A stretch of DNA of 52,466 nucleotides from Boothiomyces macroporosus. Lineage: Eukaryota > Chytridiomycota > Chytridiomycetes > Rhizophydiales > Terramycetaceae. Positions 1,155 to 52,466 of the stretch are shown piece after piece. Each line of letters begins with the position of its first letter. Position 1 is the first letter of the stretch. Made by a program: the position numbers and the translations under genes. A model generated the notes under the pieces. The model searched no databases, was not told where the DNA came from, and saw only the letters and a program-made list of their open reading frames with translations. Location of the stretch: positions 1-52,466 of the forward strand of contig JADGKB010000100.1 of the NCBI GenBank assembly GCA_027604185.1, in the 5' to 3' direction.

Positions 1155-1553
1155 ATGAGCAGAATTACAAGAGGGTTCAACCTACTACTGAGACGCAGCA
1201 TTTCAGACGCATTAAAAAAAGATATCGAATCAGTAACATTTGGTTAATATTAGAGCATCAGAAGCAACCCGGTAGTTGTTTACATGAAAGGAAACAAGGA
1301 ACAACCTCAATGCGGCTTCAGCAGAGCAGTAGTCCAAATCTTGGAATTGCAAAAAGTTGACAACTACAAGACATTCGACATTCTTCAAGATCAGGAACTC
1401 CGTAATGGAATCAAGGAATTTACTAGCTGGCCAACTATCCCGCAAGTCTTTATTGACGGTGAATTTGTTGGGGGATGTGATATTATGATTAATATGCATC
1501 AGTCTGGTGAATTGGAAGATTTGTTGATCAAGAAAGGCATCGTAAAAGAATAA
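1155..1553 (+). CDS. GRX5: Mitochondrial monothiol glutaredoxin (GRX5 type)
   Basis: The 125-aa protein comes from two exons with a 21-nt intron at 1233-1253. The first 26 residues are Arg-rich and non-acidic, fitting a mitochondrial presequence. The body matches GLRX5/Grx5: a [12 protein letters not shown] active site (Cys about residue 46, CGFS), then [19 protein letters not shown], the GSH/[2Fe-2S]-binding segment. Family knowledge: CGFS glutaredoxins pass Fe-S clusters from the ISC scaffold to acceptor proteins. The ATG at 1155 is chosen because it supplies the presequence and the splice restores the NPVVVYMKG strand. All active-site residues are intact. Confidence 0.92.
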
Positions 1554-1618
1554 AATATAATCAATGACTCTTACAAAAGTCAGGTGACTGATTGACAGAT
1601 ACATCTTTAGTCTATAAA

Positions 1619-1990
1619 ATGTTGGTCAAATCAACTGTAATTGGCGCTATTGGATGGTTTACTGCTGCACAGTTTGTAAAATACACTGGGCTTGCTGAAC
1701 CAACTACCAAGTGGCCCGCTCTATCTGTCTACGGTGCTAGCCTTGTTCTAGGACTTTGTCCAATACCAGTGCTAAAGTTAATCAGTGTGGAATCTCGACA
1801 GGTGTTTCCAGTTCTCTCTTTGGCCACTGCTGCAGCATTGATCTTGGATGGCCTAGCGACTGTATTGTGTCCCTTTTTGTATACTTTTCAGTCTACTACT
1901 CCAGTTGAAGGGTTGGCTGCCATCGCTTTTGGGGCAGGGTGCGGAATACTTGGTGGCTACTATGTAATGCTCAATGGCTATCCCTTTTAA
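1619..1990 (+). CDS. Small four-helix membrane protein, function unknown
   Basis: A single exon of 123 aa with four hydrophobic segments (about residues 5-23, 35-55, 64-90 and 98-118) joined by short loops. A Pro/Asp/Cys-containing stretch lies in the third helix (LILDGLATVLCPF). It loosely recalls small bacterial DUF5367-type membrane proteins, but that is an impression, not a match. The ATG at 1619 is the first in frame; an in-frame TTG 27 nt upstream is unlikely to be used. It is packed between GRX5 (65 nt upstream) and SMPD4 (82 nt downstream) on the same strand. Confidence 0.6.
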   Translation: MLVKSTVIGAIGWFTAAQFVKYTGLAEPTTKWPALSVYGASLVLGLCPIPVLKLISVESRQVFPVLSLATAAALILDGLATVLCPFLYTFQSTTPVEGLAAIAFGAGCGILGGYYVMLNGYPF

Positions 1991-2072: not shown

Positions 2073-4404
2073 ATGGACCCGAATAGATTACTCTCAGATT
2101 GGATCGTCAACTCCACTCTGAACAACTCGTCTACAACAGACTTGAAAAGGCTCAGGGATACGATCAACCTTGTAAATCAATGGCTGTCTACTACCCACGA
2201 CTCTGCAATTTCTCGTCCGCTATTTCAGAATCTTCCAGAGTTATGTGCATCGCTATTTGGTTCAATCAAGTCGAAAAGAGGATTATTCCACTCTCAGTAC
2301 AAGGATTTGCCTGTGAATATTTTCAAGCCTCAGAATATCTTTATTTTGAAATTAATTTATTTCCAATATGATAATTCACTCTCATTCTGTATCTCACCCG
2401 AAATATTGCCAGTACCTTATTTTGATTTAGGAATCTACGAAAAAGATACTTTTATCTGGGGATCTCACGAATCTATCTCCAATGTACAAAGGAAATCTAC
2501 TAACTAGGGACAAGGATAATCGCATCATGTTTAATATGCTAGAGTACTATCTCTTTTGCTTTTGCCAATGCTCCACTTTACTAGATTCTGTCACGGATTC
2601 AAACATCAAACCGCAATTCCAGTTAATCCTTAATCCAAACTATTTTGATTTGCTTCGCCAATACCTTTCATTCTTTATCCCAAAGAAACATGAAGAAATT
2701 ATGCAGACTCCCGTAAAGAATCAACCAAAGCAAGCTCCAATACAGTTGGACAACTCTAGTATTTTCAGGTGCACAGCTATAGATTCACCACATTCTGCTC
2801 TGAAATCTAGCCAGTTTTTTATTGAAGCGTTGATTGAAGAATTATTATGTCAAAATGACTTTGAATCTGTTGGTCTAAACTGCTCCAAAATCACAGTAAC
2901 CATCACTAAATTAGAATTATGTAAAACCAAATTCATACCAAATTGAATGTATACAAATAGTATCGAAATATCTAGTTTCTTTGGATTTAAGATATATGAA
3001 TGATCAGCGAATGCCCCTGGACCAAGACAATTTATATGAAATTATCAAAGTGCAAAGTTACAAATCATTTACCGTCAAATTTTACAGATTTTTGTACATG
3101 GCATTTTTACACTGGCCGAATGATGTTTCTATTGGAGGAGTAACAATTCAGTTAATTGTAGATTGTTGATTGCTGGATTTCTTGGGCATTTCCTTGGAGA
3201 GCTACAAATTCAAAGTACACTGATGACTGGTAATATTCGTTGATGACAGGTCAAACTTTGTTAAAGACAATTTCTTGTTTTACACCAAAATCTTTCAGCT
3301 ATTTTTAGCTAGATCCCAAAAGTTTGATTTCTATTCATCTGCCAGACCTCAAAAGCCGATTATTAACAAGCTCACTACTGTGCCAGCGGCAGTGCAAAAG
3401 ACCGATGATTTCCTATCAATCACTGAAAAGATTATTGATTGCTATGCTGACAACAATCTGATTACTTTATTGAAAGCAATGGAGACTGCTTTACTTTCAC
3501 TTGACAATTATTCCACTGGAATTGTTGCCAAGACTGCGGTTACTGCTACCCCTTCCAGAGCATTTGGGACACCAAGAATGGGATCATTCAAGGATCATTC
3601 TGGAGATGTTACCTATCAATACAGAAATAGCGGTCCTAAAACTCGATTGCATATCATTTCTTTACACACAAAGTATGATTATCTTCCACTATTTGAAGAA
3701 CCACCTCAATCAGATGAACTGATTTTACCCGCAATACTAAGATCAAGACTACACGAAACATTAGAAAGGCTAAAACACAAGAAAACACAACACCAATCTA
3801 AACCACCACCTAGCCAAACATTCTTTGAAAAGCTTTCCCAATTATTTGCTGACCAAAAAGAAATATCCGCTGATCAACTAGTACTAATTGACAAGACAAT
3901 TTCCAGATTAGAAAAAACAAAAGCAATTTTAAGCAACCTATGGCAACTTCCGGAATACGAACAGCCAATTCTAAAGAAAACTTCAAGCGATTTGTTCCAC
4001 CTTGAAGAAACCGAGCTAAACGAAATAGAACCAGGTGTATACGAACCACAAAGATACGAAAGTGTATTGACTTACAGGGGCAGAGAGCAGGTAACTGTTA
4101 CTAAGAAAGATCAAATACGGAGTGCGTAAATCAGACTCAAACCAAATACCAATAATGAAATCAACCAAATCACTTCACTTGGTAAAAAGTAACGAGATTG
4201 CCTTTTTAGTATACTTTTTCAATTATCTGGCAAAAATGTTTGATGAAAAAGTACGTTTGGTTAATGTAGGTTGAAGAGCTTCGAGCTAAACATGATTTGA
4301 CGTGGTTGCCCAAAGTTGGTATTTGGTGGTTGAGAGCTTTTGCTGCTTACAACAATTTAATACCGGCAGTGGCGGTATTGCTATTCTTTTATTACGTGCT
4401 CTAG
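2073..4404 (+). CDS. SMPD4: Neutral sphingomyelinase-3-like protein (SMPD4)
   Basis: Seven exons give 737 aa; introns at 2412-2430, 2896-2914, 3140-3161, 3230-3249, 4091-4109 and 4251-4269 (19-22 nt). Once spliced it matches human SMPD4 from end to end: LPELCASLFGS near the N-terminus, FNMLEYYLF, YFDLLRQYLSFFIP, FLxWPxD, VKDNFLFYTKIF, LTYRGREQIKYGVRK and SNEIAFLVYFF. A hydrophobic C-terminal segment (WWLRAF...FFYYVL) could be a tail anchor. Family knowledge: SMPD4 is an ER/nuclear-envelope protein linked to nuclear pore function and assigned sphingomyelinase activity. It converges tail to tail with CWC25, 12 bp away. Confidence 0.88.
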
Positions 4405-4416: not shown

Positions 4417-5277
4417 TTATTTTACAGTTAATTCTCTGGAGCGGTGGGGAGAGTAATCTCGTTTTCTTTGCCTTCTCTCTGGAGATGTGGAGCGCCGACT
4501 TCTTGAAGATTCCCTTTCTCTAGAGCGTTTTTGGTAGGGCGACCTGGAGCGATCTCTACGTTTTCTTTCAGGGGTTCGAGATCTGTCTCTTCTTTCTGGA
4601 GTGTAAGAGCGATCTCTTTTTCGTTCTGGAGAGTAGGAACGATCTCTTCTTCTTTCTGGAGTGTAAGAGCGGTCTCTTTTTCGATCAGATCTTTCATCCG
4701 GAGAATCATGCTTGCTCTTTTTCTTTTCCTTCTTTAAGCGTTTACGTTCTTCCTTTTCTTTCCTTTTCTGTAATTCTTTTAATCGCAATGGATTTTTCAA
4801 CATTGCTTCCAAAGTCAACTGTTCCTGTCTTCTGAATTCCAACAACGGATCGTCCCTGACTTTGTTTTGGAAATCGCGCTGAGTGTTGGCAAGCAGACCA
4901 TACACGGAATTACCCACTGGCTTATCAGTTACCTATCATTAGTAATAATTTACATGTGTAGTAGTTGGTTGGTCAACTTTATCAATTCGTTTCTTTCCCA
5001 AAAGGAACGCTTCCTTTTCTTGATCAACATAGTCATTTTGTTGCGAAGGACCGGAAGCATACATCCACTCCAAACGTATATTCTTCTGTCTTCCTTTACT
5101 GGTATCATGTAACCCCAAAAGCTCATCCCTATCACGTTCTTCCTGTATTTCTTTTCGGAGTTGCTCCAATTTCCTCTTTTCTTTTTCGACTTCCTGCTCT
5201 CGTTTCCACACAATTTCCTGGTTCTTGTATGTATTTGGATGCCATGATTTCTTCAAGTTCAAGTCTCCTCCACCCAT
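4417..5277 (-). CDS. CWC25: Pre-mRNA splicing factor CWC25
   Basis: Two exons, 279 aa; intron 4933-4953 (21 nt, carrying TACTAAT before its 3' end). The N-terminus starts MGGGDLNLKKSWHPNTYKNQ, the signature of CWC25, followed by the basic coiled region (KLEQLRKEIQEERDRDEL), LEWMYASGP and the KVRDDPLLEFRRQEQ block. The C-terminal ~100 residues are an RS-type tail with repeated RDRSYTPERR/RDRSYSPERK. Family knowledge: CWC25 joins the spliceosome for the first catalytic step and helps position the branch helix. That makes its RS-expanded tail notable in a genome with ~20-nt introns. Confidence 0.93.
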
Positions 5278-5798: not shown

Positions 5799-7015
5799 TT
5801 AGGAATAGTAATTTGGATAACACTTGGCAATTTCTTCTCTAGTCAATCTTCTCGCTCTGTTTCGGAGAAAAGTGATTTTGTCATCCATAGTCATCTTCCC
5901 GGTCAAGTCAACATAGTGGTTAGCAAGCCATTTGTAGTCCTTGACCATCAAATGGCACCAAATTAGCCAGTAGTCACAATCTCTGAAAATGACAACCTTT
6001 TCAGACTTGTATTTTTCAATATTTTGGAAGAAATGTTCTGGGTGGTCTTGCCAATGTCTGATAGAGTTGAGATGATGGGAAGTGTGATATCCATCGTTAA
6101 ACGCGGTTGCATTGTAAACAGATTCAACGACAGTTAAAGCAGTCTTGTGGTCGTTAGTAGCATCATCTTGAGCCAAGAATGCATGTTGAGTCCAGTTTCC
6201 AGTCATCATTCCAATTCTATATTATAATAAACTTACCTTGAAAAGTTGAGTGGGACAAACCAAGCAAATATTACAGATCGTGGATCGAAAACAAAAAAGA
6301 AGGACGAAATGAACATGATGGTCAAATATTCCCCTACAAACACGTTAATCCCCCAGTTCAACTTGCCCTTCTTGTAAAAGTAAACCGGCAATTCCATGCC
6401 AATCAAAAAGTAGAATCTAAAGTAATAAATAGCAAAGTGCATCCAATTATCTCTGTCGTACCAGATAGTAGAGGAGAGATCTTCAGGACCATTGTCTTCA
6501 ATATGGTGATGTTTTACATGGTGGTAGTAAAAAGTACTCCAGGTTTGCCCATAGAATGGACAAAGAATGTAGTGAATGAGAAAGTCCGCAACTCCGTTCT
6601 TTGAGGTCTTCTTGTGAGATACACAGTGCAACATCAAAATAAACGGTGGAATAGTAACTACCATCATTACAGTGTGTAAAATGGCATGAACCCAGTTGAA
6701 CCTGTAGAGCAGAAGGAAAGTCGAAGGAACCACTACTGCAAATGAAAATATTATGTGTGAAATGAAAATAGTATCTCTAGGATCGACTAGAAAGGTTTGC
6801 GTCCATTTTACATATTGTTGGAGTAATGGCTGTAGTACAGAAGGTACATCCTTGTTTGCAAACCAAGAAAAGGCTCTATTGAATTCAGTGTCTACTGGCA
6901 AGTTGTATTTCGGATCGAGGGTGTTGTCCAGCTTGCGCTTTGCGTAGCCTAGAATGGTAGAGTCTCGTAGCGGCTCTCTTACAGTCATTAACTTTTTCTG
7001 CTTTTTCTTGTCCAA
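5799..7015 (-). CDS. Membrane fatty acid desaturase
   Basis: Two exons, 398 aa; intron 6217-6236 (20 nt). It carries the three histidine clusters of the membrane-bound di-iron desaturase/hydroxylase superfamily: HCVSH (about 130-134), HHVKHH (about 165-170) and HTSHH (about 304-308). Hydrophobic pairs precede the first box (about 84-128) and follow the second. The motif HHIEDNGPEDLSST and the later WTQHAF recall a fatty-acid-desaturase-like group of protists and fungi, not the classic delta-9 type. Family knowledge: such enzymes act in the ER with cytochrome b5; the double-bond position here cannot be read from sequence. The start is the first ATG after the upstream stop. Confidence 0.82.
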
Positions 7016-7305
7016 TTTAAACTAGTCACGTGATTTTGTTTATAATATTGAGATTGTGTTGAATAATTCTGAATTTTTTGTTTATCTGTGCCATACTGGC
7101 CATCCAGCATATGGGGATACCGTATAAACACGTACAGAAGAACAAACGGACAAATAATCTAAATCCGCGAATTGCTTTGGTTAGTAAGATTCTTTTATTA
7201 GTTCGTAACCTCTACAGTACAATTCCTTTAGCTCTGCCATTGAATTGTACTCTTTATACTCTTGGTCACTTCTAAGATAGTCGCTTTTACTGAGTTAGCA
7301 AGTAT

Positions 7306-8197
7306 TTACAAAACAAATCCGAGATTGTTGATTTGGGATAACTGCATTTTAATCATTTCACGTTTTTGATTGTATTTCTCTGTTCTCTTTTTGTTTATAG
7401 AATTCAAGAACCTCTGGGTTTTCGGATACTGCTTTTGATTTGGTATGAAATACTTGTTTATATTGAGTTTCTTGAGCTGAACTTGATTAGTCTCCGTTAG
7501 AAGGTCAGTGTTTGAATCTGTAGGCAGCAGATTGCTTTGTGAATCATCAGCCTTGTTAAGAATAGTGCTTGAGATTTCTTGATACTCTGATTGAAGCAGC
7601 GGTTTCATATGCCTCAGTAATGGACAAGAGTCAAAGATCTTTTTGAGATCCGATATTTGCTGGGATGATTGCTCTTTAAATTCGCCGATTATCCTATTAC
7701 TATACATTCTGGTGTAATTGTAATGCTCCTTTCTATCGTAAATTAAATGGAGGATATCAACCAGCAGAATATAAGTCTTCCAGGAATCAAAATCAATCAC
7801 TGGTTGCTTCTTTTTATGCTTTACTGATTTCAATCCAATCGTTGCCAATTCCGTTAAAATAGCGGATTTGATTGGTGTATTGGACAGGTACAGCTTTAGT
7901 TCCATGAATTCTTGTAATATTCGTTGTTTATAATCCACAAAATACTTTTTGTAAATCATCAGCAATTCCAACGGCGAATGATGACGGGAAGCCTAATATT
8001 AGAGTCGCATACCTATCGTTAGTGTATTATTACGATATCAATCTAAATTAGTAGTGAGTTACTTTCATTCCGCACTGTACGCAATTCAAATCGTCCTTGT
8101 GGGATACGCTGTCGCATATATCACAGAAATACAAATCCAGTCCGCAGTTGCGACATTTCAACGTCGGCGAAACTTTTGGAGATGGTTGGCAATTCAT
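7306..8197 (-). CDS. Zinc-ribbon N-terminus plus helical body, unknown function
   Basis: Three exons, 276 aa. Exon 1 (8063-8197) encodes a Cys/His cluster: CRNCG, CDIC, SVSHKDDLNC, CVQCG, a treble-clef or zinc-ribbon pattern. It is spliced by a 20-nt intron (8043-8062) to a 9-nt exon (8034-8042). A 41-nt intron (7993-8033) that looks like two miniature introns end to end then leads to a long helical, Lys/Leu/Gln-rich exon with no motif I recognise. In-frame stops upstream and in both introns force this structure. The ATG at 8197 follows an in-frame stop. Joining the zinc exon to the long exon is inferred from phase only and is less certain than either part. Confidence 0.55.
7993..8033 (-). 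other. 41-nt intron composed of two abutting miniature introns
   Basis: In gene orientation, the 21-nt unit (8013-8033, GTAATA...CGATAG) is followed directly by the 20-nt unit (7993-8012, GTATGC...ATTAG). Each has its own GT, AG and CTAA-type branch site. Removing both, or the whole 41 nt, keeps frame. Retaining either one gives an in-frame stop or a frameshift. Confidence 0.55.
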
Positions 8198-8456: not shown

Positions 8457-9716
8457 ATGTCCTTTATGCAAGAAAAAAAGCCTTTGAGGATCCTGTTCGC
8501 AACTGAATATTTACCGCCATACGTTTCCGGAATCGCTAATCGATGTAAAAACTGGATTCAAGGATACAAGGACCAAGGTCACCAAGTTACGGTATTCTCT
8601 TGCAAAGGAACGGATTGTGATGTAGTAGTGCCTTCATTAGCAAATCCGTTCTACAATCATCAAAGGTACCCTCATTTTAACAAGAACTTTTATCTTGCCT
8701 CCGTTTTCACTTGTTTACGACTTGCTAAACTTTATGAAGCCAGTAGAATACGATATAGCTCACATTGTCGCACCGCTGTGTCTATCATTTCTACCGCTGT
8801 TGCCTCTAATGTGGTTGAGAGGCGTCAAAATTTATGTCTCTTACCATGTTTATCTTGAATACTATCGCGATTTATATTTTGGAAAGATTTTGTTTAGAAA
8901 ACTGTTCAACTTGATTACAGATATCCTATTCCCGCTTGCTTACTATTTGCCTCTCAGTTTCTTTGCCGACTGCGTTGGGATTCCTTCTAAAACTGCAGAC
9001 TCATATGTATTTGACTATTCGCACAGAGTGCATATATTGAAATCAGGATTAGATACTAGAATATTCCATCCAGATGCTAAAAATTATCAGGGAGATGTTT
9101 TGGATTTGAAATCAATGTCAACTGAAGGACCAGTATTGATTTACTGTGGGCGTTTGGCAGTTGAAAAATCAATAGACTTTCTCATTGAATCATTAGCGGA
9201 ATTGGATACTGCCACTCTTGTAATTGTTGGCGACGGGCCAATCAGAAAAGATCTCGAGCAGCTATCCGAGCGTGTAGTTGGAAAGGAATACGTCTATACA
9301 GGAGAATCTCCAGTAAGTTGGAATTGACATAGATAAATGGAAGATATAGAGTCATTTTCACTGGAATGATCCGCAATGAAAAAATAGTTGCAAGTTACTA
9401 TGCCCAATCTGACATTTTTGTCAGTGCTTCTGGATCAGAAACGTTTGGATTTACTGTAGCTGAAGCCATGGCTTGTGGTACTCCATCGTGTGTAGTGAGG
9501 TCTGGTGCGTTCACCACTGTTTACAAAATGATTGATAACTGGATGTTTGATGTGGGCAACACTGAACAATTTTGCCAAATCATTCGGGATATTTACAAAA
9601 ACAGCAGTAATAGACAGTTATCCAGACGAATTGGAATGCAATTTAGCATTGAATCCTCAGTTAATGATTTATTAGATACTTATTATTGGATTGTTGGTGG
9701 ATGCCAAGAAGAATAA
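8457..9716 (+). CDS. SQD2-like family 4 glycosyltransferase
   Basis: Three exons, 406 aa; introns 8666-8684 (19 nt) and 9313-9332 (20 nt). GT-B fold, GT4 type: N-terminal ILFATEYLPPYVSGIANR, a central YCGRLAVEKSIDFL, the GDGP nucleotide-binding turn and the EX7E motif SETFGFTVAEAMACGTP. Its closest pattern in memory is plant/cyanobacterial SQD2, which makes sulfoquinovosyl diacylglycerol, and not PIG-A or ALG2: YVSG...NR, then PxDIxHxxxP and YCGRxxxEKS. Homologues occur in several non-photosynthetic eukaryotes with unclear acceptors. I therefore call a glycolipid-type transferase, with sulfolipid only as a possibility. The gene ends 15 bp from the convergent 7TM gene. Confidence 0.8.
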
Positions 9717-10963: not shown

Positions 10964-10988
10964 TTGGTTTAGATTTTGATAAATCTGC

Positions 10989-10996
10989 TGACGTCA
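10989..10996. promoter_or_regulatory. CRE-type palindrome TGACGTCA
   Basis: A perfect 8-bp palindrome, the consensus for CREB/ATF-type bZIP dimers, starting 26 nt upstream of the ATG of group A copy 1. Confidence 0.65.
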
Positions 10997-11138
10997 AATA
11001 AAAAAGATACGGTATTGAAAGCAATGTATCAACAATCAGTATATTAATCTAATTATCACTCACTGAGGTTGAAATCAAATACATGGTGGATTATTTGGTT
11101 GGTGTCTGATCATGCAACTGAGGAAAGCCGTCGCACTT

Positions 11139-19392: not shown

Positions 19393-19395
19393 TAT

Positions 19396-39558: not shown

Positions 39559-41733
39559 ATGGGTGATTCCAATACGATACGGCAGCGCAACGGGACTTTA
39601 TCAGAGGCGAATTTAGTCCACACATCGTCCAGATCGATCCCTCCTGTGACGTATGTACTGTCTGAACCACAGCAATCCCAACAAAACACTCAACCTAGAG
39701 AATCACTATCTGATATCGAGGAGGAAGTGACTGAGCGAGACGGATTTATTACTAGAATTTTCAAGCTTAGAGGGTTTGTTTCATTTATCTTTCTCCTGGT
39801 TTTTGGAACTGCGATTTTGATTTCTCCAACAGTGAACATTGTTAGGACTGATCCAAACGCATGGATAGACTTTCAACAAAATACCACTGCATTAACCTCC
39901 CAGACCCCTAATCAAATAGTTGTCGTTTGGTACGTGGAACTAACAGTAGGTCGGTTTTCCTTTCCGTATCATGGATTATATTCTTGGGGACCTGGTTCAC
40001 CTTGCTTTCACTACCCGTATTTACAATCGAAGTTATTGAGCGATTTTATGGAACATGCAGCGAACAAACTAGGCAAACGCTAGCTTATATACCGGAATTG
40101 CAAGTTTGGCTTTCATTGATGATTTGGGCAATCGGAAGTGTTCTTGCGTTTAGGATTATATTTCTTCAGCTTGTTCAAGTCAATCCATGGGAGAACATAT
40201 TCAGCTTTTTCTTGTGTGGAATGATATTCACGATCGTACTGTTCTTCCAAAGACTTTTTGTTCAAAAAATTGCTTTTGACTTTCACAAGTAACGGGCTTT
40301 AATGGTAGGGTCGCGTATGAAGAGCGCATGTCTCAATCTCGAAAGGCAATTGACATTATTGAGCATTTGCGTGGTGCTTTAGTTGGAAACACGAATCTAT
40401 TCGGCGATCTATTTGAAAGTGAGAAAAACGATATGAAAATTCCTGATCCTGTTAGTGGAGAAGATGAACATGTTGGTAAAGATGATATGCCTCAAGATCA
40501 AGAACCTCCACCTCGACAAAGAAAATCTGTATTCAGTTGGTTCTCGAAAAATCAGCAACAACCTATTCCGCAAGATCGCAATAGTATAGAAATCAAGGTG
40601 GAAGAAGGCGACTCGCTTACTCGAACATTGTCGCAGAAAAGCAAAGTCCCAACAGGTAGCAGAACTGCCAAGAGAAAGACTTTATCGAAAGAAGCTAAAG
40701 GAAACTCATTCTTAACTTGGGATCAATTTAAATCGGCTCTAAAGATTGGCGGCCTCGGGGCAAAAAAGTCAAAAGGCATGGATCTGTTGTCAGACAGACA
40801 TGCAACCTTTTTGTCTGAAAAGCTTTTCGGAGTATTAAGAAGCCCAGATACTAATGAAATATCTGTTGGCTCTTTCTTTGCTTACTTTGATCAGGAAGAA
40901 CAGGCAAAATCAGCATTTGCACTGTTTGACAAGGATGGAAATGGCAGTATTAACCAAATGGAGCTTAAATGGGCCATTCTTCGAATCTACAGGGAAAGAC
41001 GCAACTTGATGAAATCACTAAGGGATCTATCTAGTGCTCTTGGAACCTTGAATGACTTGTTGTACGGGTTCTCTATTATTTTATCCCTTTTGCTCTCCTT
41101 ACCAGTGTTTGGCATTCCTATCACTACGATAGTGCCATTTTCCACGATTTTGGTCGGTCTTTCATTCATGTTTGGTGGAACAGCCAAGGTAACCTTTGAC
41201 TCTATTATATTTATATTTGCAGTACATCCGTACGACGTGGGAGACAGAGTTTTTATTGACGGTAACAATTATGTTGTGGAGGAATTCAATATTCTCACTA
41301 CAACCTTCACAATTGACGGACAAAAGATTTACATACCTAATGGTAACTTTTTTAATTTACATTAGCTGTCTTGAATGGAAAAACCATCATCAATGTTCGA
41401 CGATCGACAGATATGTCTGATTATATAACTATCAAGGTTGATTTCAACACACCTGAATCCAAACTAAAAGAGCTACAGGCTAAAATGATTGAGTTTACCA
41501 CCGCGCAATCCCGAAACTTCCGCCCTACTTGCTCGATGGATTTCATGGACATGTCTTCCTCAGGTATGATTACCCTGAGATTCTCTGTTGATTTCAAAGG
41601 CAACTGGCAGGATGGAGCTAGGAGATGGGGAAGAAGAACCGCTTTCCTGTTTGAACTAAAGAGACAGTTGGAAAACCACGGAATTTGCTTCGAAATGCCG
41701 GTTCAACCAGTTCGTATGATTGAACGAGAATAA
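39559..41733 (+). CDS. MscS-family mechanosensitive channel with EF-hand
   Basis: Four exons, 703 aa; introns 39930-39949, 40289-40308 (20 nt each) and 41343-41365 (23 nt). Several N-terminal transmembrane helices precede an EF-hand loop at about 444-455 (DKDGNGSINQME). The MscS pore and beta domain follow: GTLNDLLYGFSIIL, FSTILVGLSFMFGGTAKVTFDSIIFIF, HPYDVGDRVFIDGNNYVVEE, IPNAVLNGKTIINVRRS. This is the eukaryotic Msy1/Msy2 layout, in which Ca2+ binding modulates a stretch-gated channel of the ER or plasma membrane in osmotic shock. An acidic, Ser/Arg-rich segment lies between the helices and the EF-hand. Confidence 0.92.
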
Positions 41734-41888: not shown

Positions 41889-42800
41889 ATGAAGTTGAAC
41901 CTCTCACCAATAACTAAACTCATTACCAACCAAAGATCAGTGAATCTATCTGCCAAGAACATTGTCAACACCATACTACATGGAAACGTAAAAGCCGAGG
42001 ACCTCAACGAAACCTATTCCAAGTTACTCGCCAGAGGCAAATCCATACATGAGCTCGCTATCCACAATGTAAAACCTGAAGCAATGAGCGATTATATTGC
42101 TGCAATGAAGGAATTCCAACCAAAGTTGGTAAATGATCAACGAAAGTTGTTTGGTGTTTGGGAAAATACTGTGGGAGAGTTGGATCAAGCTGGTACTATT
42201 GAGCTAATCCAGTTCACATATGGGAGTATGCCGGATACGAAGAATTCCATGAAGCAAAGATATTGAATCGAAACAAGGCAAGTCAATAGTAACACTAGGT
42301 TAATGATTGCTAATGCAGGGGGTTGATGGACAATTTGAAAAGACAATCAGACCAATGCTCCGTTCTAGAGACTCGCAAATTGTTCTCGAGTTTGCTTTCT
42401 GGAATGCATCGATTCCGCATGAACAGGATATAATTTACGAACTTCGCACCTATCTATTGAAACCAGGAAAGCTACTTGAATGGGAACAAGGTTAGTTTGT
42501 ATTAACATTAGGATGGTAATTTGTATTGATACAGGCGAATGGGATTAGAAGCCAGAAAGCAATATGTCCAACCTGTAGGTGCATGGTTTTCACAGATTGG
42601 TCATTTGAACTATGTCCATCACATGTGGGCATACCCTTCGTTACAAGACCGTAAAACTATGAGGGAAGAAACTTGGAAAGAAAAAGGATGGGGAGAGTCT
42701 GTCAAAAAGACCGGTAATTCTAATTAACAAAGTTGGACTAATCGATCACATGCAATCGAGAATCCTTACTCCAATCATCTTGAATAAAAAGCCTCTTTAA
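41889..42800 (+). CDS. NIPSNAP: NIPSNAP-family mitochondrial protein
   Basis: Six exons, 263 aa. Introns are 42193-42212, a 41-nt GC-AG double intron 42278-42318, 42491-42511, 42516-42534 (leaving a 4-nt exon) and 42714-42732. The spliced protein tracks animal NIPSNAP throughout: HNVKPEAMSDYI, VWENTVGELDQAVHIWEYAGYEEFHEAK, SQIVLEFAFWN, IYELRTYLLKPGKLLEWEQGW, VGAWFSQIGHLNYVHHMWAY, then KTVGLIDHMQSRILTP. The Arg/Lys-containing N-terminus could be a mitochondrial presequence. Family knowledge: NIPSNAPs sit in the mitochondrial matrix and can flag damaged mitochondria; two dimeric alpha-beta barrel domains. Confidence 0.9.
42278..42318 (+). other. 41-nt GC-AG intron composed of two abutting miniature introns
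   Basis: Unit 1 (42278-42298, GCAAGT...CACTAG, 21 nt) is followed directly by unit 2 (42299-42318, GTTAAT...ATGCAG, 20 nt, with CTAAT). Retaining either gives an early stop. The start GCAAGT is the usual form of a GC 5' splice site. Confidence 0.6.
42512..42515 (+). other. 4-nt exon (GATG) between two miniature introns
   Basis: Flanked by introns 42491-42511 (21 nt) and 42516-42534 (19 nt). Including exactly these four bases converts CAA-G + GATG + G-CGA into Gln-Gly-Trp-Arg and restores the NIPSNAP frame (EWEQGWRMGLEARK). Skipping it breaks the frame. Confidence 0.8.
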
Positions 42801-42888: not shown

Positions 42889-45800
42889 ATGCAAATTAGG
42901 TAAACAATAATCAACCGTAGACATTTGAAATCTATAATATTGCCGGGGGACTCGCCGAACAGAGTCACTGCCCTTGCATGGTCCCCAAACAATCAGAAGT
43001 TGGCTATCGTTACAGCAGACAGAATAATCCAACTATTTGACGAAACTGGAGAAAGAAAAGATAGATTTGCCACTAAACCAGCTGATTCCAAAGTACCTCA
43101 ATACTAAAATAGAATATTAGATCTTATTTTGTATGCGGTTTGGCTTTTTCACCAGATTCAACAAAGTTGGCTGTAGCTCAATCCGACTGCGTCGTATACG
43201 TTTACAAATTGGGTTTGGACTGGGGAGAAAAGAAATCGATTTGCAACAAGTTTATTCAAACCGCCGATATCACCTGTTTAACTTGGCCAAAAGAGCAACA
43301 CAACGCAATAGTGTTTGGATTATCAGATGGAAAGGTGCGAGTTGGAAATTTGAAAACAAACAAAGCGGCAACCTTGTATCAGACAGAGTCTTGTGTTGTA
43401 TCTGCCGTGAGTAACGTTGAAGGAAACGCAATCATTACTGGGCATTTGGATGGTACAATTAACAGATTCTTTTTTGACGATGGAATATCTGGAGCTTCTC
43501 AAGGAAAGTTTTGCACTCATTCGTGCCCTCCAATAACTCTGGCATGGGGAGAATCCATCATGGCCGCGGGACCAGATAGAACTGTAGTATTCTACGATGC
43601 TGAAGGAAAAGTGTTGCAAAAGTTTGATTACTCGTCCAACCCAGATATCCAAGATTTTACGGTTGCAGAACAGAGCCCTTCTGGACAGTGTATCGTCATT
43701 GGCAGCTTTGATAGGTCCTTTATCGCTGATTTAGGTTGCATATCTTCAATTATTTGATTTCCAAAGGACAGTGGGAAGAAGCTCAAATGAAGACCATCGA
43801 AAACTTTTACACTGTTAGTGCGCTATCTTGGAAACCAGACGGCTCCCGCTTAGTAGTGGTAAACAGAATTTTAAACTTAGGGAAATATGAATAGTGCAGT
43901 TGAATTGTTTGATTGTTGTCTTCGAAGATCAAGGTACAAGGGGAAATTCGAGTTCAACTATGTTTCACCAAGTCAAGTAATTGTCAAGCGATTGTCTACT
44001 GGGTCAAGAATCGTCTTGAAATCACACTACGGATACGAAATCCAGAAAGTGAATATTTTCCAAGACCAATTTTTAATCGCAAATACGCCTGAAACATTGC
44101 TAATGGGAGATTTAGCCAGTTGCAAACTTAGTGAGGTGCCATGGACTGGAAGTGGAAATGAAAAGTTTTACTTTGAAAATCCGCATATCTGTATGGTGTT
44201 TAATGCCGGAGAGCTCTCTTTGGTAGAATACGGTGTAAATGAACTGTTGGGATCGTGTAGAACTGAGCACATGAGTCCTCATTTGATCAGTGTACGAATC
44301 AATGAAACCAAAGCAGATGACGAAATCAAAAAAGTTGCTTATTTGGTTGATTTACAAACAGTGCAGATTTTGGATTTGACAACGGGATTAACAATTGCTA
44401 CCATATCCCACGATTCTAAGATTGATTGGCTTGAACTGTCCGGGAAAGCAAACAAACTTTTATTCAGAGACAAACGAAGGCAGCTGCATTTGTATGATAT
44501 TAAATCCATGACTAGAGTTACGCTGCTCCATTTCTGTAGCTACGTACAGGTAAGTTCTACTTTGATTATAGTGGGTTCCAAACAGTGATGTGGTTGTTGC
44601 TCAAAGCAGAGGAAACTTGTGCATCTGGTACTCTATTGATAGCCCAGAAAGAGTGACAATGTTCCCAATTAAAGGGGAAATTGAGGATATTGAAAGGGCA
44701 AATGGAAAAACAGAAGTTATAGTCGATGAAGGGGTCAACACAGTTTCGTACACACTTGATGAAGGACTAATTGAGTTTGGAGCTGCATTGGATGACAAAG
44801 ATTACGAAAGAGCCATTGCGTTGCTAGAAACTTTAGAAATGACTACTGAAACAGAAGCAATGTGGAAAAGCCTGAGTGCTACTGCATTAAAAGACCAAAA
44901 ACTAGCAATCGCTGAAAGATGTTATGCAGCTATTGGTGATGTAGCCAGATCAAAGTATCTTCATAACCTGAACGATATTATTGATCAAGCAGGAGAGGAA
45001 AATCCGGATGTAATATTCTCTAACATTAGATGGAACCAAACCATTATGTTGTTCGTGCCAAACTTGCTGTACTAGATAGACAATTCAAAGTTGCTGAAAA
45101 CATCTACCTTGAAAAAGGAAAAGTCGAAGAAGCAATGGAAATGTATCAAGAGATGCACAAATGGGACATGTCCATAAAAGTTGCTGAGCTCAAGAATCAT
45201 CCAGAGCTGGATACGCTGAAGAAAAACTACTTCCAATGGCTGATTGATTCAGGACAGGAAGAAAAGGCAGCCCAGATAAAAGAAGAAGAGTATGACTACA
45301 TTTCTGCGATAAATCTATATTTAAAGGGTGGTTTGCCTTCCAAAGCTGCTCAAGTTTTAATCCAAAACTCCTTGTTCAACAACGTAGAATTAGCCGAAAG
45401 AGTTGCTGGTGCACTGTACAAGGGCGGAATATTTGAAAAAGCCGGAGAGCTTTATGAAAGATTAGGAGGCAATGAACGAGCTTTAGACTCTTACAAGAAA
45501 GGAAAAGCTTTCAGACCGGCTGTAGATTTGTGTAGAGTATTATATCCTTCTGAAGTAGTAAAATTGGAAGAAGTAAGTAAAAATTGACGTTAGCAATGGG
45601 GTGACTATCTCATGACCCAAAAGCAGACTGATGGTGCGATAAACCACTATATAGAAGCAGGAAAATCAATCAAAGCTCTAGAAGCAGCGATCTTGGCCAA
45701 GCAATGGAAAAAAGCTGTTGGAATAGTAGATACTTTGCAAGCAACGGACCAAGCAAAACCATATGTGCTACAAATGGCTGAGCATTTCAAATCTGTTGGG

Positions 45801-48234
45801 GAAACAAATTTAGCCGAAAAATACTATGTGGAAGCAGGTAAACCGCAAGAAGCCGTAGAAATGTACACCAAAGCCAACAAATGGGAAAAGGCTCACAGTT
45901 TGGCAATCTCGTACATGTCCAAAGAAAATGTATCGAATTGGTATATTTCACAAGCAAAAGAAATGGAATCTCAAGGTAAACTGAAAGATGCAGAGAAATT
46001 GTATATAACTGTTGGAGAGCCGGATTTGGCGATAAACATGTACAAAAATCATCAAAGCTATGATAATATGATTCGGTTGGTTACTCAATACCACAAGGAT
46101 TTATTGACAGAGACTCATTTGTATCTTGGGAAAACTTTGGAGTCAGAAGGAAATTTAAAGCAGGCAGAACATCACTTTATTGAAGCGAATGACTTTAAAT
46201 CTGCGATAAATATGTATTGCTCAAACAACATGTTTGAAGAAGCATACCGAGTCGGTAAAACACACGGCGGTCCAAATTCTGCTAAACAAGTTGCATATCT
46301 GTGGGCTAGATCACTCGGCGGAGAAGCGGCTGTCAAATTACTCTCAAAATTCAATTTGCTCGATTCTGCCATTGATTTTGCAACTGAAAACGGAGCTTTC
46401 GACTTTGCTTTTGAACTATCGAGATTTGCAGATAAGCACAAGCTTGCAGATGTTCATTATAAACATGCAATGTTTTTAGAGGACGAGGGAAAATTCAAAG
46501 AAGCAGAGACTGCATTTATCTTGGCAGGGAAGCCTAGGGAAGCAATATTAATGTACATTCACGACGAAAATTGGGATGCCGCACTGGCAGTAGCCGAAAA
46601 TTACGAGCCGGTTAGCGTGCCAGAAGTATTAATTGGGCAAGCCAAAGTTTGCTTTAACAACAACGAATTTGCTAAAGCCGAATCATTAATATTACGAGCA
46701 CAACGACCTGAACTGGCAATTAAAATGTACAAGGAAAGCAACAACTGGAAAGAAGCCCTTCGTTTCACAAAACAATATGTTCCAAACAAGGCTGCCGAAA
46801 TTCACCAAGAATACGATAGATACTTGTCTGGCCAATCTGATGCAGGTAAAGATCACATTATCAAAACTGCTAAATCCTTTGAACAACAAAAGGAATACTT
46901 GCGGGCAATTGAAATGTATCTCAAGCTTTCGACATCCCACACTGACGATTTGGACTTGCTTGAAGAAAAATGGGGAAGGGCTGCAGATCTGGCAGTGAAA
47001 TTTGTTCCTGAAAAAGGAAAGGATATTGTAATTACTGCATGCAAAAAATTGGTGGAGATTGGAAAATACGATACCGCTGGGGAGTTGTACGCTGGAATAG
47101 ATCAATTAAAGGATGCCATCGATACTTTTATCGCTGGAGGGCTATGGGAAAAGGCAAGACATATCGTATCCTACGCTCCAAAGTATACAGATTATGTGGA
47201 ATATGCTTATGTTAAACACTTGAAAACTGCTGGACAAGGCGATGCACTGGTTGAAGTTGATGTGAATGCAGGCTTGGAAGTTTTCGCTCAAAGGGGTGAG
47301 TGGGAAAAATGCTTGGAAACCGCTGCTGCTGGTATGAATATTGAGATTCTAAGCAAATACCTTGCAAGCTATTGCACTCTTTTGGTAACTCAAAGCAATT
47401 ACCATACTGCAGTCAATGTAATCAACCAATATGGGGCACCTCCTTCTCAAAATATTTTGGAATTATACAAGAGGATTTCTATTGCAGTTTTGAAGGATAG
47501 AAATTCAACTCCAGAAAATATTGCTTCGTTGAGAAATATGCTCTTCCAATTAATTCATGGAACAGGAATCGTCGCTAATCCTAAATTACTGGAGGCATTT
47601 GGATTGTATCTTACAATCGCTCACTACATGAATCTTCATTACATGTGCTCCAAAAAACGAGATTTGCTCTATTTCGCAGCAAAGCAAGCAATATCTTTAC
47701 TGAGATATACAAATATCTTGCCAGCAGACAAGACTTTCTTGGAGGCTGGACAAGCAGCAAAGGTAACAATTATTAATACAGAATTCTGGGATGCTTTCAA
47801 TGGCATTTGTCTGTTGGAATAGATATTTAGATTTGACTGAAGCCATTGAAGAAGGAGATCTCTCGCTGATCGAAAACACAGACTTTATCAATACCGATGT
47901 TCCATTTGATGTTGAGCTTCCATCAGAAGTCATTCAAGTACATTTCCACTAACAATAGAATGAAAGGATCGAGCAAATCAGAGACTGGGTTCTTCAAGTA
48001 TCGCTGGACCAAAAAGTAAACCAAGAAACAGACAAGAGAGAATGTGAAAATTGCAAGTCTTTAATCTATGATGCATCACTGAATTGTTACAATTGCAAAA
48101 AAGTCTATGAACCGTGTGTTGTTACAGGGTATCCACTATCTAGAAACAAAGTCAAATGCACCACGTGCTCTAAATTTGCAAACAAAGATGATTGGAACAA
48201 ATACGTAATGATTGAAAGGGTAAACTCGCATTAA
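42889..48234 (+). CDS. IFT172: Intraflagellar transport protein IFT172
   Basis: Ten exons, 1,719 aa (human 1,749); nine introns of 19-22 nt at 42900-42920, 43093-43112, 43715-43734, 43859-43880, 44550-44571, 45010-45029, 45573-45593, 47763-47781 and 47938-47958. The first exon encodes only MQI and part of an Arg. Residues ~1-560 are two WD40 propellers ([61 protein letters not shown]). The rest is TPR-like solenoid ([30 protein letters not shown]). The C-terminus has CxxC pairs and [11 protein letters not shown]...NKDDWNKYV. Family knowledge: IFT172 is a core IFT-B subunit involved in turnaround at the ciliary tip. Complete, so a working flagellum is expected. Confidence 0.97.
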
Positions 48235-48368
48235 TCGTAGACTTGTCCATGGTGTAGATCTAGCCAAGCTCCTATTTACTTTACATGATTGAATGAAATC
48301 AATACTATAATTTATTGTTTAATTTTTTCATGTTGTTTGATAGTTCCACTTTTCTGAATTAGAAAATA

Positions 48369-49435
48369 TTACTTTAGACTCCTGCCATTGTTTATACGGC
48401 CATTGGACATGTCCCACTTTCCTGTTTTACTGTTAAACGCATAGTTCTGAATTAGCAAAGTGTACTTTATAGTATGGTTTGTCTCTATATTCTCTTTGCA
48501 ACACCTTTTGGTATTGGTTTGGCCGCCACGTAGGGATACCTTCAAAAGTAGTTCTAACCAATGGGAACAGTTGTTCATAGTTGTAATATCGAGGGGTTTT
48601 GCAAGATAGAAATCTTCTGTACTCTGACACACCTGTAATATCTATAAAATGGCCATTCCTAGTATCTATAAATCTAGCATCGATGACATTATTATCCTGC
48701 TTTCCCCTGACTACATGGTTGGGGTTTACTTCAAGAATATACTAGTATAAAAGTGAATTACATGATTGGCAATAGTTTGGTTTTGATATTTTCGTAAATC
48801 GTACAGACTGTTGGCAACAACTTGTATATCAATATCGTCATCAAATGGCATCGTTCTTCCTCCCCATTTCCATCCCAAAAGCGTGCCGTGCATTATCCAG
48901 TAGGGTATCTCTACTGAATCACTAAATATTGCCCTTGAATTAATTCAAATTACCAGTTTTTGAATAATTCGTGTATAATAAGGAGCTTTTGCTTATGGTC
49001 TTCATATCCGCCTGAGAATCTGCTATCGAGATGGTGAATCTTTTCGTCCTCGTAAAAGTATTTCAAATCTTTGTTCTGCGCCAAAGTTGTTGGCGGCTCA
49101 ACGAAGCTCTGTAAAGTAGGCAACAGACGGGTCCCTAATGGAATCTCAAATGGGTATCCCTCTGGATTCTTTTTCCTTTCCCATTTAGTAAACGTATGCT
49201 GTTGATCTGGCGGTAATACTTGATACTGCACTACACACTCTGGTCCGCATCCTGTTAAAGTAACGTCTGACTGGTACGGCTGTATCAAAATAGGTTGCTG
49301 TGTTGAAAAAACTTCAACTTCAAAGTTATTATCCGTTTCAAAGAATCCAAATACATATAATACCGCAAGGTTCAATATTACCGAGCTTGATATAAATATA
49401 CATCTAGATCTACGTAGTGTTGGAAGAAGATACAT
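48369..49435 (-). CDS. LicD-family transferase, type II membrane protein
   Basis: Four exons, 335 aa; introns 48934-48953, 48742-48761 and 48447-48465 (19-20 nt). A short cytosolic tail and one signal anchor (about residues 12-32) precede a luminal domain. LicD motifs: YWIMHGTLLGWKWGG (HGTLLG ~176-181), MPFDDDIDIQV (DDDID ~192-196), then NVIDARFIDTRNGHFIDITG and LFPLVRTTFEGIP. Family knowledge: LicD/fukutin/Mnn4 enzymes move phosphocholine, ribitol-phosphate or mannosyl-phosphate onto sugars, and in fungi they modify glycans in the Golgi. The ATG at 49435 is the first in frame; an upstream TTG is not needed. It converges with IFT172. Confidence 0.87.
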
Positions 49436-50077
49436 GAAAAAACAACGCGTAAAAGTGGCAAATAATCCGATAATTCTAGTTTCCTGATAATTCAACAATA
49501 CGGTATTCCGGATCCAATGTCTGAAATTGAGAATAGCGGTTTATTTCAGATTGCTTTGAAAGCTTGACTGTGCATTTTCAAATAAAGGATTGTTGGTACA
49601 ATTGAATGATGAAGCAGTGTCCTGACACACAGCATCCAATTTCTCTCTCAAACTGCGGAATACATATCAATATGCGGCCCTAATCACACCTTTTATCAAC
49701 CCATTTGCCCGATATTTATCAGTTATATTTCGTAAGCAAAAATAGCCAGTAACCTCATTTACATTCAATTGTTGGTAAACCCAATATATGTATAATCAGT
49801 TGACGCTATAATTACCATCTTTTGATAATAATCAGATTAGCGCGATCCATCCAAATACTTTCTCTGCTAAGTACTACGGTAGGAAAGGTGTCTCGCCATG
49901 TAGCGTTAATCTGCAGTTATAATGATAGGTTTTATTAAGTTAACTTTAACTTATAACGTGATGGCGTTATCATATACAGGCATTATTGATGTTGCCTCAA
50001 ACTTTTTTTCTCCCTCCACCGCGCCACAAACTGGCAATGAAACTAACAATGAGAAACACATCCTGAATGGGTTTTAT
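49436..50077. other. Intergenic region, nothing recognised
   Basis: Lies between the LicD start and the end of the recombinase gene. Stops in all frames. Small palindromic pieces near 49935-49975 (around GTTAACTTTAAC, and ATAACG...CGTTAT) could mark the outer edge of the mobile element, but I found no terminal repeat to prove it. Confidence 0.4.
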
Positions 50078-52466
50078 TTATTGAAATTTCATGGATGAAT
50101 TTTTGGTTCTTGAACACGGTCCTTTACACAATTTGTTTTTGTTTTCATTGTAGTAATTTGGTAGAATTCCTTCATGCAGCTCTTGTAGAGAATCGATAAA
50201 TTTTGTTTCATTTCCAGAGTGGCATGTATAGTAACATAAAACAATGGGTTTGATTGTTTTGTAATAGTGGTTTTCAGCCGCCTTTGTTAGTTTGTTCAAG
50301 ATCAAACGCCCGTTTCCCATGCGCGAAAGTGATTCAAAATCCTCAAGTACAAGTCGAAGTTTCATTGTGGCTACGATTAGTACAGTTTTACGAGTTAGGT
50401 TGTCCTTCGAGTTCATGATTGTAAGTCTGTTGGGAAAGTCCTGATCTCTCCCTGTGTATCTTATTTTTGAATCACCTTCACCAGCCTTCTTACGCAATCG
50501 ACCAACACCACTTGATTGCGATACTTCAGGTTGATTTACTGGATTGCTAGTCTCGAGTACTACAGTTTGATTTAATGAATTGGTTATTTGAGGCGGTTGA
50601 TTAGTAGATGGTACCAATTCTGTTTCCACGCTCTGTGTTTCGTGTGTTTGCTCTATTGAATTAGCAGTAGGGTACCTGTACGATCCTTATTGAAAGTTGA
50701 CAAAATCCCCTCACTTCTTGCCAAATTCAGCAATTCCTTTAAATCCTCAAGTGCTTCACTTTGTAGATGGTACTTTTCTCTAAATTTTTCTATAGCTTCG
50801 GCGCTGCTGGACTTTGCCTTGAACTTTGTTGCTGCCTGTATCACAGTGAACAAGGAAAGATTTTTTGCGTTAGAACCAAGGCCACATTTCTCTTCCACAA
50901 AGTCCTTTGCTACCTAAAATCAAGAGCAAATTACTGTATATAACTCGGTAGGATTTGAGTGCTCTACATAATTGAAATTACTTTGATTGCTGACGAAGCA
51001 GGGCTTCCATTCTCCTACTAAAGTCTGTGGTTTGGTTGTGCTATAATTGGCCATTGCAAACTGAGTTCTTGCGTCTAGCTCATATTTCACTGCGCTATTA
51101 GTATCACTGTGTCTTGCTGATTGCATTATTCTGGAATAAGCAGCGTTCGAGTTATCCTTTGAACCCCAGATTGCAAACAGATACCCGGTTTTTCTTAAGC
51201 AGTGTGTTCCCCATTTTTTTTTAATCCTACTTTCTTTAATTTTTGTATGGACCACTTTTTTACATAGTGAATCAATTTTGTTGTTGAATTTATCGTAAGT
51301 TAGAGACGTGGAGAATACTCCGTCTGGCGGTGGATTTTCGATTTCAGAAATATCGGGAAATAGCGGTCCATCTTTAATTTGCAGATAGTATACGTATACC
51401 AAAAGATGCCTGATTGGACACAGTAAAGTATTGTCGTTGTCTGCCCACAAAAGTAGATGAACAGGTGTTGTGTCGGTTTTGCCTTTAACTTTAACCAGTA
51501 ATCCTTCAAGCACACCATCCTGGAATATGGAACCTTCCAAATCAATACTGTCAATCGTCAAACCCTGTGTGTTATCTTTGTCACTCCTTATGGCTTCTTC
51601 ACTTCTCAGGAACAGTTTAATCGACAGAATCATGAGCACATAAAATTGTAATCCTGGGAGATTGTCGAATAGCAATCTTTCCCTAATTCTCAGTACATAC
51701 ATTGGAGTTAAAGGAATTGCACCATTCACAGGATTCACACTTTGGACTTTCAACAAATGGTGCTTGTCATCTTTCCAGAACCTCCCTTACATAAGTAATA
51801 ATTACCTAGAGATGGGTTTCCTTTTCTTCGCGGCCTTGGATCCCCAACATGTGCATTGCAGGACATGCCGCCCTTTTCATTCACCACTTTAAAACATTCC
51901 TCACATTCCCTGGTGTAGCGGCCATCCTCATCAAATTGTTGATGGATCTTTGTTATTACGGAGTTGAATCGCTTTACATTTGTCTGTGCCTTCCAACCAC
52001 CTTGGCAGATTACTGGACGATTTCCTACATCGACAACGATTTCTCCATAAAAATCTTTCAATACTTTACCCTTGTTGGTTTCATCCTTGAATTTCAAAAT
52101 GAGGGCCAAGTCAGAATCACACATGGAGGGAGGATTAAGCGGTGGTTCATCCATCAACATTAAAAGATTTTCGTATCTACCTGTGTTCTTGAAGAAGTAC
52201 TTCATCAGTTTAATAGCCCCTTCATCCATGTCTTTTGTGCTTTGTGCACTGCTTGTCTTTGGTACATACTTGGTTGATCGTGTTGGAAATACAAGACCAT
52301 ACTTTTCGACTACCTTACCTACCCCAATTTTTGCTAGTTGCTCAATTTCTTTGTCTACAATATACAGCTCCTTTGGCGCTTTTTCTATTTTAAGAATTGC
52401 TTACTTTTTTTTACTACTGCTGCATGTTTTTTGGCATGGTTGACTGGAATTCCTACATTGCCTCTG
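50078..52466 (-). CDS. Crypton-like tyrosine recombinase (5' end outside window)
   Basis: Five exons in view (768 codons, N-terminus missing); introns 52385-52404, 51786-51805, 50914-50934 and 50653-50675 (20-23 nt). After a Lys-rich start and a Cys cluster (RECEECFK...MSCNAH), the catalytic part shows LFLRSEEAIR (first Arg), THCLRKTG (H-x-x-R, about 51190-51205), SARHSD and VKYELDA (Tyr), the R-H-R-H-Y set of tyrosine recombinases. The C-terminal ~250 residues (AKDFVEEKCGLG, RYTGRDQDFPNRL, CKGPCSRTK) are unknown and may bind DNA. No reverse transcriptase is visible. Catalytic residues and the splice frame are intact, so it is not an obvious relic. Confidence 0.72.
50078..52466 (-). mobile_element. 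Crypton-like DNA transposon (partial)
   Basis: Inferred from the tyrosine-recombinase gene. Cryptons carry such a gene without terminal inverted repeats and insert at short duplicated sites, so no ends can be drawn from sequence alone. The right end is outside the window. A domesticated host gene is the alternative, given the host-like introns. Confidence 0.5.

Follow-up and report, generated by a model that had tools for sequence, protein, structure and literature searches.

Predicted introns of about 20 nucleotides beside mostly conventional spliceosomal parts in a probable fungus-like flagellate

The 52,466-nucleotide (nt) stretch of DNA analysed here—the window, which is contig C100 of a genome with 15,203,306 bases in 216 contigs—carries genes interrupted by segments of about 20 nt. 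With a probability of roughly 85%, we are dealing with ordinary spliceosomal introns of the U2 type, reduced genome-wide to a geometric floor in a flagellated, fungus-like opisthokont. An earlier note on the window had proposed that nearly all of its introns measure 18–23 nt; this holds for 70 of 70 introns in the window, and 334 of 344 fall at 19–23 nt in a larger set from the same genome. That the segments behave as spliceosomal introns is supported by their GT-AG ends, a fixed branch motif, frame restoration, aligned junctions and the spliceosomal RNAs and proteins encoded alongside. Nearly all predicted introns follow the pattern GTA(A)...T(A/G)A(C/T/A)...(T/C)AG at 19–23 nt.

The length peak appears in tests that are free of length assumptions. 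Hereby, a semi-Markov gene finder was used that allowed introns of 10–300 nt with an equal prior for each length and required only GT and AG. The sample of 261 kb consisted of the window together with 200 kb from contig C1 and the 9 kb of contig C58 that surround the PRP8 gene. With a coding model built from open reading frames only and no splice profile, 80 introns were found, 45 of them at 18–23 nt; eleven decoy dinucleotide pairs gave 55–70 introns each, with 1–8 in this range. The decoy test had been repeated with this model because an earlier one had been refined on its own GT..AG calls—there, 53 of 97 introns fell at 18–23 nt and 2–10 of 72–87 for the decoys—and the outcome was unchanged. 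When GTA...branch motif...AG matches in the window are simply counted, the lengths of 19, 20 and 21 nt have 19, 31 and 16 of them, and controls at these lengths gave 4–13 for two altered 5′ starts and 5–17 for an altered 3′ end. Splice profiles learned from the 53 introns, with the flat length prior retained, placed 129 of 162 introns at 19–23 nt. A first, weaker gene finder, since replaced, had found nine introns in the window, five of them at 19–21 nt.

The final run combined learned splice profiles with a mixed length prior and predicted 297 introns in 161 genes of the 261 kb, whereby 112 genes bear introns and the density amounts to 1.63 introns per kb of coding sequence. When 13 loci from another 12 contigs were added (three that overlapped being excluded; less than 0.4 Mb of 15.2 Mb altogether), 351 introns were obtained, from which seven in pairs less than 12 nt apart were removed. 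The remaining 344 show the single narrow length peak below about 25 nt that is expected of uniformly tiny introns genome-wide, with a mode at 20 nt (81, 144, 77, 26 and 6 introns at 19, 20, 21, 22 and 23 nt). The length of 18 nt, which the earlier note had placed within the range, is rare: the de novo calls include none below 19 nt (0 of 351), and the sole supported case, 23394–23411, rests on the intron of paralogous genes at the same site. This intron is divisible by three in length and free of in-frame stops. A candidate at 28704 that resembles 18 nt reads better as 20 nt (28704–28723), which preserves the frame of the paralogs.

Homologs fix some of these junctions. Spliced PRP8 (2,329 residues; six introns of 19–22 nt) aligns without nearby gaps at six of six junctions with PRP8 of solved spliceosomes. 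For IFT172, ten of ten junctions align with a solved relative—including the sole GTC donor, 43715–43734—whereby one lies a few residues off a one-residue gap and another two residues before the alignment ends. Both VDAC junctions align, one adjoining a one-residue gap, as do two of three in mitochondrial EF-Tu, the third lying inside an unaligned leader. Four CNBD paralogs have intron sites 1–3 in common, and site 4 is found in three of them because paralog B ends early; the introns at these shared sites, nine of them hand-placed, are unlike in sequence and length (18–22 nt). Paralog B (window 24481–25680) bears the three shared sites and lacks the C-terminal part of the others, and is possibly a decaying copy.

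Alternatively, the segments could remain in the mRNA and be handled during translation by frameshifting or bypassing. The GT..AG ends, the branch motif at a fixed position, the occurrence of every length class modulo three and a spliceosome in the same genome make this hardly credible. An in-frame stop is found in 25 of 25 three-fold segments of known phase, which also speaks against retention, with the reservation that the gene finder is biased towards them. Since it is blind to stop-free three-fold introns, the same 25/25 is uninformative on a selection against these.

The predicted introns of the window are listed below by window position and strand, where de novo means placed by the final gene-finder run. 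This run called 60 of them, all at 19–23 nt (16, 24, 13, 4 and 3 at 19, 20, 21, 22 and 23 nt). Five of lower certainty stand in pairs with 0–9 nt of exon between; the other 55 all lie at 19–23 nt. Together with nine hand-placed CNBD introns and one placed by eye in a glutaredoxin-like gene, the total is 70, all at 18–23 nt. The earlier note had counted 74 introns, 70 of them at 18–23 nt; four longer ones did not turn up in the final run.

1233..1253, +, intron of 21 nt, glutaredoxin-like gene (1155-1553); by eye, not called de novo
2896..2914, +, intron of 19 nt, SMPD4-like gene (mit_SMPDase domain); de novo, domain match
3140..3161, +, intron of 22 nt, SMPD4-like gene; de novo
3230..3249, +, intron of 20 nt, SMPD4-like gene; de novo
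4091..4109, +, intron of 19 nt, SMPD4-like gene; de novo
4251..4269, +, intron of 19 nt, SMPD4-like gene; de novo
4933..4953, -, intron of 21 nt, Cwc25; de novo
6217..6236, -, intron of 20 nt, fatty-acid desaturase-like gene (domain just under cut-off); de novo
7290..7309, -, intron of 20 nt; de novo
7993..8012, -, intron-like segment of 20 nt, abuts 8013..8033; de novo, less certain
8013..8033, -, intron-like segment of 21 nt, abuts 7993..8012; de novo, less certain
8043..8062, -, intron-like segment of 20 nt, 9-nt exon to neighbour; de novo, less certain
8666..8684, +, intron of 19 nt; de novo
18228..18248, -, intron of 21 nt; de novo
18325..18345, -, intron-like segment of 21 nt, abuts 18346..18364; de novo, less certain
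18346..18364, -, intron-like segment of 19 nt, abuts 18325..18345; de novo, less certain
20098..20117, +, intron of 20 nt, PCI-domain (PCID2-like) gene; de novo, domain match
21272..21294, +, intron of 23 nt; de novo
21409..21427, +, intron of 19 nt; de novo
21581..21600, +, intron of 20 nt; de novo
23101..23120, +, intron of 20 nt, CNBD paralog A site 1; hand-placed, shared site
23223..23241, +, intron of 19 nt, CNBD paralog A site 2; hand-placed, shared site
23360..23379, +, intron of 20 nt, CNBD paralog A site 3; hand-placed, shared site
23394..23411, +, intron of 18 nt, CNBD paralog A site 4; hand-placed, shared site
25453..25471, +, intron of 19 nt, CNBD paralog B site 1; hand-placed, shared site
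25574..25592, +, intron of 19 nt, CNBD paralog B site 2; hand-placed, shared site
25708..25729, +, intron of 22 nt, CNBD paralog B site 3; hand-placed, shared site
28704..28723, +, intron of 20 nt, CNBD paralog C site 1; hand-placed, shared site
28826..28846, +, intron of 21 nt, CNBD paralog C site 2; hand-placed, shared site
28965..28984, +, intron of 20 nt, CNBD paralog C site 3; de novo and shared site
28999..29019, +, intron of 21 nt, CNBD paralog C site 4; de novo and shared site
30918..30938, +, intron of 21 nt, CNBD paralog D; de novo
30988..31007, +, intron of 20 nt, CNBD paralog D; de novo
31130..31148, +, intron of 19 nt, CNBD paralog D; de novo
32079..32098, +, intron of 20 nt, CNBD paralog D site 1; de novo and shared site
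32201..32219, +, intron of 19 nt, CNBD paralog D site 2; de novo and shared site
32338..32357, +, intron of 20 nt, CNBD paralog D site 3; de novo and shared site
32372..32391, +, intron of 20 nt, CNBD paralog D site 4; de novo and shared site
33164..33182, -, intron of 19 nt; de novo
33335..33353, -, intron of 19 nt; de novo
34268..34288, +, intron of 21 nt, VDAC (Porin_3); de novo and alignment
34514..34535, +, intron of 22 nt, VDAC (Porin_3); de novo and alignment
35261..35280, +, intron of 20 nt; de novo
35449..35467, +, intron of 19 nt; de novo
35521..35539, +, intron of 19 nt; de novo
35907..35926, +, intron of 20 nt; de novo
39930..39949, +, intron of 20 nt, MscS-like channel with EF-hand; de novo, domain match
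40289..40308, +, intron of 20 nt, MscS-like channel; de novo
41343..41365, +, intron of 23 nt, MscS-like channel; de novo
42193..42212, +, intron of 20 nt, NIPSNAP gene; de novo, domain match
42491..42511, +, intron of 21 nt, predicted gene piece next after NIPSNAP domain; de novo
42714..42732, +, intron of 19 nt, predicted gene piece next after NIPSNAP domain; de novo
42900..42920, +, intron of 21 nt, IFT172; de novo and alignment
43093..43112, +, intron of 20 nt, IFT172; de novo and alignment
43715..43734, +, intron of 20 nt, IFT172, GTC donor; de novo and alignment
43859..43880, +, intron of 22 nt, IFT172; de novo and alignment
44550..44571, +, intron of 22 nt, IFT172; de novo and alignment
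45010..45029, +, intron of 20 nt, IFT172; de novo and alignment
45573..45593, +, intron of 21 nt, IFT172; de novo and alignment
47763..47781, +, intron of 19 nt, IFT172; de novo and alignment
47938..47958, +, intron of 21 nt, IFT172; de novo and alignment, one-residue gap nearby
48220..48240, +, intron of 21 nt, IFT172; de novo and alignment, which stops two residues further
48354..48372, -, intron of 19 nt; de novo
48447..48465, -, intron of 19 nt; de novo
48742..48761, -, intron of 20 nt; de novo
48934..48953, -, intron of 20 nt; de novo
50653..50675, -, intron of 23 nt; de novo
50914..50934, -, intron of 21 nt; de novo
51786..51805, -, intron of 20 nt; de novo
52385..52404, -, intron of 20 nt; de novo

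Back-to-back intron-like units of 19–21 nt are seen at window 7993–8033 and 18325–18364 (minus strand) and in the Isy1 gene (locus L036, about 1258–1299). The exon between them measures 0 nt, or 1 nt in Isy1, and the whole 40–41 nt; these might be single 40-nt introns, twin introns or artefacts of the gene model.

In 290 short introns, the third donor base is A in 266, T in 20, G in 3 and C in 1, position +4 is A in 59 percent, position +5 is G in 17 percent, and the A+T content amounts to 71 percent. A putative branch site—TAAT, TAAC, TAAA, TGAC or TGAT, called by motif—is present in 267 of the 290, mostly with 5–6 nt after the putative branch A. The earlier note had likewise described GTA donors with rare GTT or GTC and a branch-like motif few bases before the 3′ end. 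In the profile-free set, 48 of 53 introns carry a strong motif, with the A at position 14–16 in 45 of these 48 and followed by 5–6 nt in 43; in the final set, the motif is found in 266 of 289, with the A at 14–16 in 249 and a tail of 5–6 nt in 236 of the 266. Non-intron GTA..AG segments of 19–23 nt (n = 2,144) bear the motif in 516 cases, 176 of them at 14–16 and 136 with a tail of 5–6 nt. Loop and tail sizes are independent of each other in the 255 of 289 introns that have a loop of 14–16 and a tail of 5–6 (chi-square p 0.44), and, therefore, the total length adds up from two narrowly constrained distances. The scant room that had been noted between 5′ site and branch point is hereby measured.

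The genome encodes parts of a major spliceosome. U6 (62.2 bits) and two U2 genes (142.2 and 135.4 bits) are present, together with a U1 candidate of 68.8 bits, just below the 69.5 cut-off, and with genes for PRP8, Prp18, Slu7, Isy1 and Cwc25. The Cwc25 gene lies in the window itself, and its start was taken from a lenient gene-finder run that gave fragments and served for nothing else:

4417..5277, -, Cwc25 splicing factor gene; 279 residues, arginine-serine-rich tail; N-terminus MGGGDLNLKKSW with glycine plug

A Methyltransf_10 protein (METTL16 family) is encoded as well—a family that also occurs in bacteria. Among the searched protein families PRP8, METTL16, Prp18, Slu7, Isy1 and RED, only RED had no match in the genome, but its control search came back empty as well; likewise, U12 snRNA had no match in the genome and no control matched either.

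Tiny introns might rely on remodelling of the spliceosome—a conjecture made for Stentor, with the Cwc25 plug lost and the Isy1 N-terminus changed—or on a reduction of the mikrocytid type. The unaligned Isy1 N-terminus (see below), the missing RED match with its equally empty control and a +5 G in only 17 percent of donors would fit such remodelling. However, Cwc25 retains the Gly2-Gly3-Gly4 plug and tryptophans 12, 24 and 71, and is hence not of the plugless Stentor type, Slu7 and Prp18 are present, and the U6 ACAGAGA, the U2 GUAGUA and the U1 5′ end (ATACTTACCTGG) are canonical, which together render remodelling unlikely. Two more specific ideas could be discarded. A loss of Slu7 or Prp18—an idea from yeast work—as reason for a workable tail of 5–6 nt is ruled out as both genes are present, and a compensating U6 or U1 change for the missing +5 G is ruled out by canonical pairing sites in both. 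The +5 G is rare despite its usual pairing partners being retained in U1 and U6.

For ordinary introns at a geometric floor, U1 would pair with AG/GUAA and U2 with UAAY at the branch site. Assembly of the spliceosome would proceed across the intron (intron definition), leaving a lariat loop of about 14–16 nt and a tail of 5–6 nt. Deletion bias or selection for compactness would have stripped everything else from the introns, and the narrow range would mark the lengths that the 5′ splice site, the branch helix and the 3′ splice site still accommodate between them.

Several points weigh against this explanation. Splicing itself we infer from the genome, and branch points from motifs. The floor does not explain the lower lengths of Stentor and the mikrocytids. 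Furthermore, not every factor may be plainly conventional, as the first 36 residues of Isy1 are unaligned to human Isy1—the alignment starts from 37—although the 5′ gene model is doubtful here. Ten of the 344 introns are predicted to be longer (25, 43, 43, 45, 46, 73, 116, 122, 123 and 161 nt), and the flat prior with splice profiles left 33 of 162 outside 18–23 nt: two at 13 nt, one at 25 nt, ten at 36–47 nt and the remainder at 51–277 nt.

These longer calls also bear on the idea that the narrow lengths are partly a product of the gene finder and that many introns are truly longer. The ten at 36–47 nt might be a minor class or pairs of short introns. In addition, the final run used a length prior, and with scrambled splice profiles it still gave 24–93 introns at 18–23 nt (eight runs), a number that caps the false calls only loosely, as many of these may be true sites caught by frame alone. 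Nevertheless, the peak persists when the prior is flat and splice profiles are absent, in the raw motif count and at homolog-fixed junctions, so that such an artefact is very improbable.

The source organism is taken as a flagellated, fungus-like opisthokont on the basis of EF-1A and IFT172; the fungus-like identity, which the earlier note had read from its genes, is supported by EF-1A but not proven. EF-1A (locus L032, elsewhere in the genome) bears the insertion GWTKETKAGTQTGKTLLDAID, a motif that we take to be diagnostic of opisthokonts. Among solved proteins, EF-1A matches best one of 458 residues (908 bits), presumably that of yeast, followed by EF-1A 2 (861 bits). The C-terminal part of PRP8 leans the opposite way, with 1999.5 bits for hPrp8 and 1716.6 bits for spp42, which may simply stem from fast evolution in yeasts. 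With one PRP8 exon as query against viral and genome contig collections, no relative was confirmed.

To our knowledge, genomes whose introns uniformly measure about 20 nt or less are limited to the heterotrich ciliates, the mikrocytids and the nucleomorphs of chlorarachniophytes, each of which is peculiar in its branching factors (altered), its spliceosome (reduced) or its nucleus (a relict). The present introns are among the shortest spliceosomal introns, as had been claimed, yet not the shortest: heterotrichs including Stentor reach 15–16 nt (PMC9505925) and mikrocytids 16–17 nt (PMC10245619). From the comparable sizes invoked in the earlier note, the nucleomorphs match with 18–21 nt (PMC10245619), whereas Stentor is shorter, Paramecium is longer and the mikrocytids had gone unnamed. 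Nucleomorphs share the length range, the narrow spread and an intron-rich compact genome (PMC10245619), but are relict endosymbiont nuclei, in contrast to the 15.2 Mb genome of a flagellated opisthokont. Mikrocytids share uniform tiny introns, theirs in a reduced genome with 17–19 spliceosomal proteins; Mikrocytos mackini has 224 introns (PMC10245619), unlike the 297 predicted here in 261 kb. Slu7, Prp18, Isy1, Cwc25 and PRP8 are all present here. Paramecium and Nyctotherus, both ciliates, have ultra-short introns only, at about 25 nt still longer than those found here (PMC5014332). Fungal introns have GT-AG ends and likely lineage affinity in common with the present ones, but the known fungal averages are much greater than the present 20 nt or so, with 63 bp in the intron-rich Cryptococcus neoformans (PMC8476143) as an example.

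Stentor is alike in bearing uniform, tiny, AT-rich introns genome-wide with a putative branch A at a fixed position, which is 10–11 there (PMC9505925) and mostly 14–16 here. Its Cwc25 lacks the GGG plug, and such differences, the authors propose, might help avoid a clash with the looped RNA (PMC9505925). In the present genome the plug is kept and would coexist with a loop of about 14–16 nt, which speaks against a sharp lariat loop requiring plug loss, at least down to 14 nt. A text search of the available part of the aphelid genome study PMC10608142 (three genomes tabulated) found introns not mentioned. The literature matches listed included no report of introns uniformly at 20 nt from aphelids, rozellids, chytrids or sanchytrids, with most subscription literature outside reach, and this genome thus joins the known tiny-intron systems in a lineage without such a report among those matches.

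A further step would be that a flagellate of the fungal lineage independently drove nearly all its introns, about 17,000 when extrapolated, to a fixed geometry (branch A at 14–16, tail of 5–6 nt) with a largely conventional spliceosome that includes an intact Cwc25 plug, Slu7 and Prp18, to which we give somewhat less than even odds. If true, an active site that is neither pared down nor remodelled would suffice for tiny introns, and the natural floor for a standard spliceosome would lie at 14 nt. An opisthokont case with conventional U1, U2, U6, PRP8 and Cwc25 would carry the question of the minimum intron to the lineage of yeast and human, which offers structures and genetics to address it.

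The window has a G+C content of 38.1 percent, and its genes—SMPD4-like, PCI-domain, VDAC, the MscS-like channel with EF-hand, NIPSNAP, IFT172 and Cwc25—sit on both strands. Six minus-strand open reading frames within 9735–17955 had no match in a Pfam search; four of them lie in 13759–17955, where tandem frames (minus strand) of an unnamed family finish in FSQFQS-like motifs. A predicted protein of 1220 residues (35751–39430), whose 1167-residue open frame is without a Pfam match, shows recurring LSHSRKPSA-like motifs by eye. Short direct repeats, likewise seen by eye, mark the contig end at 1–140.

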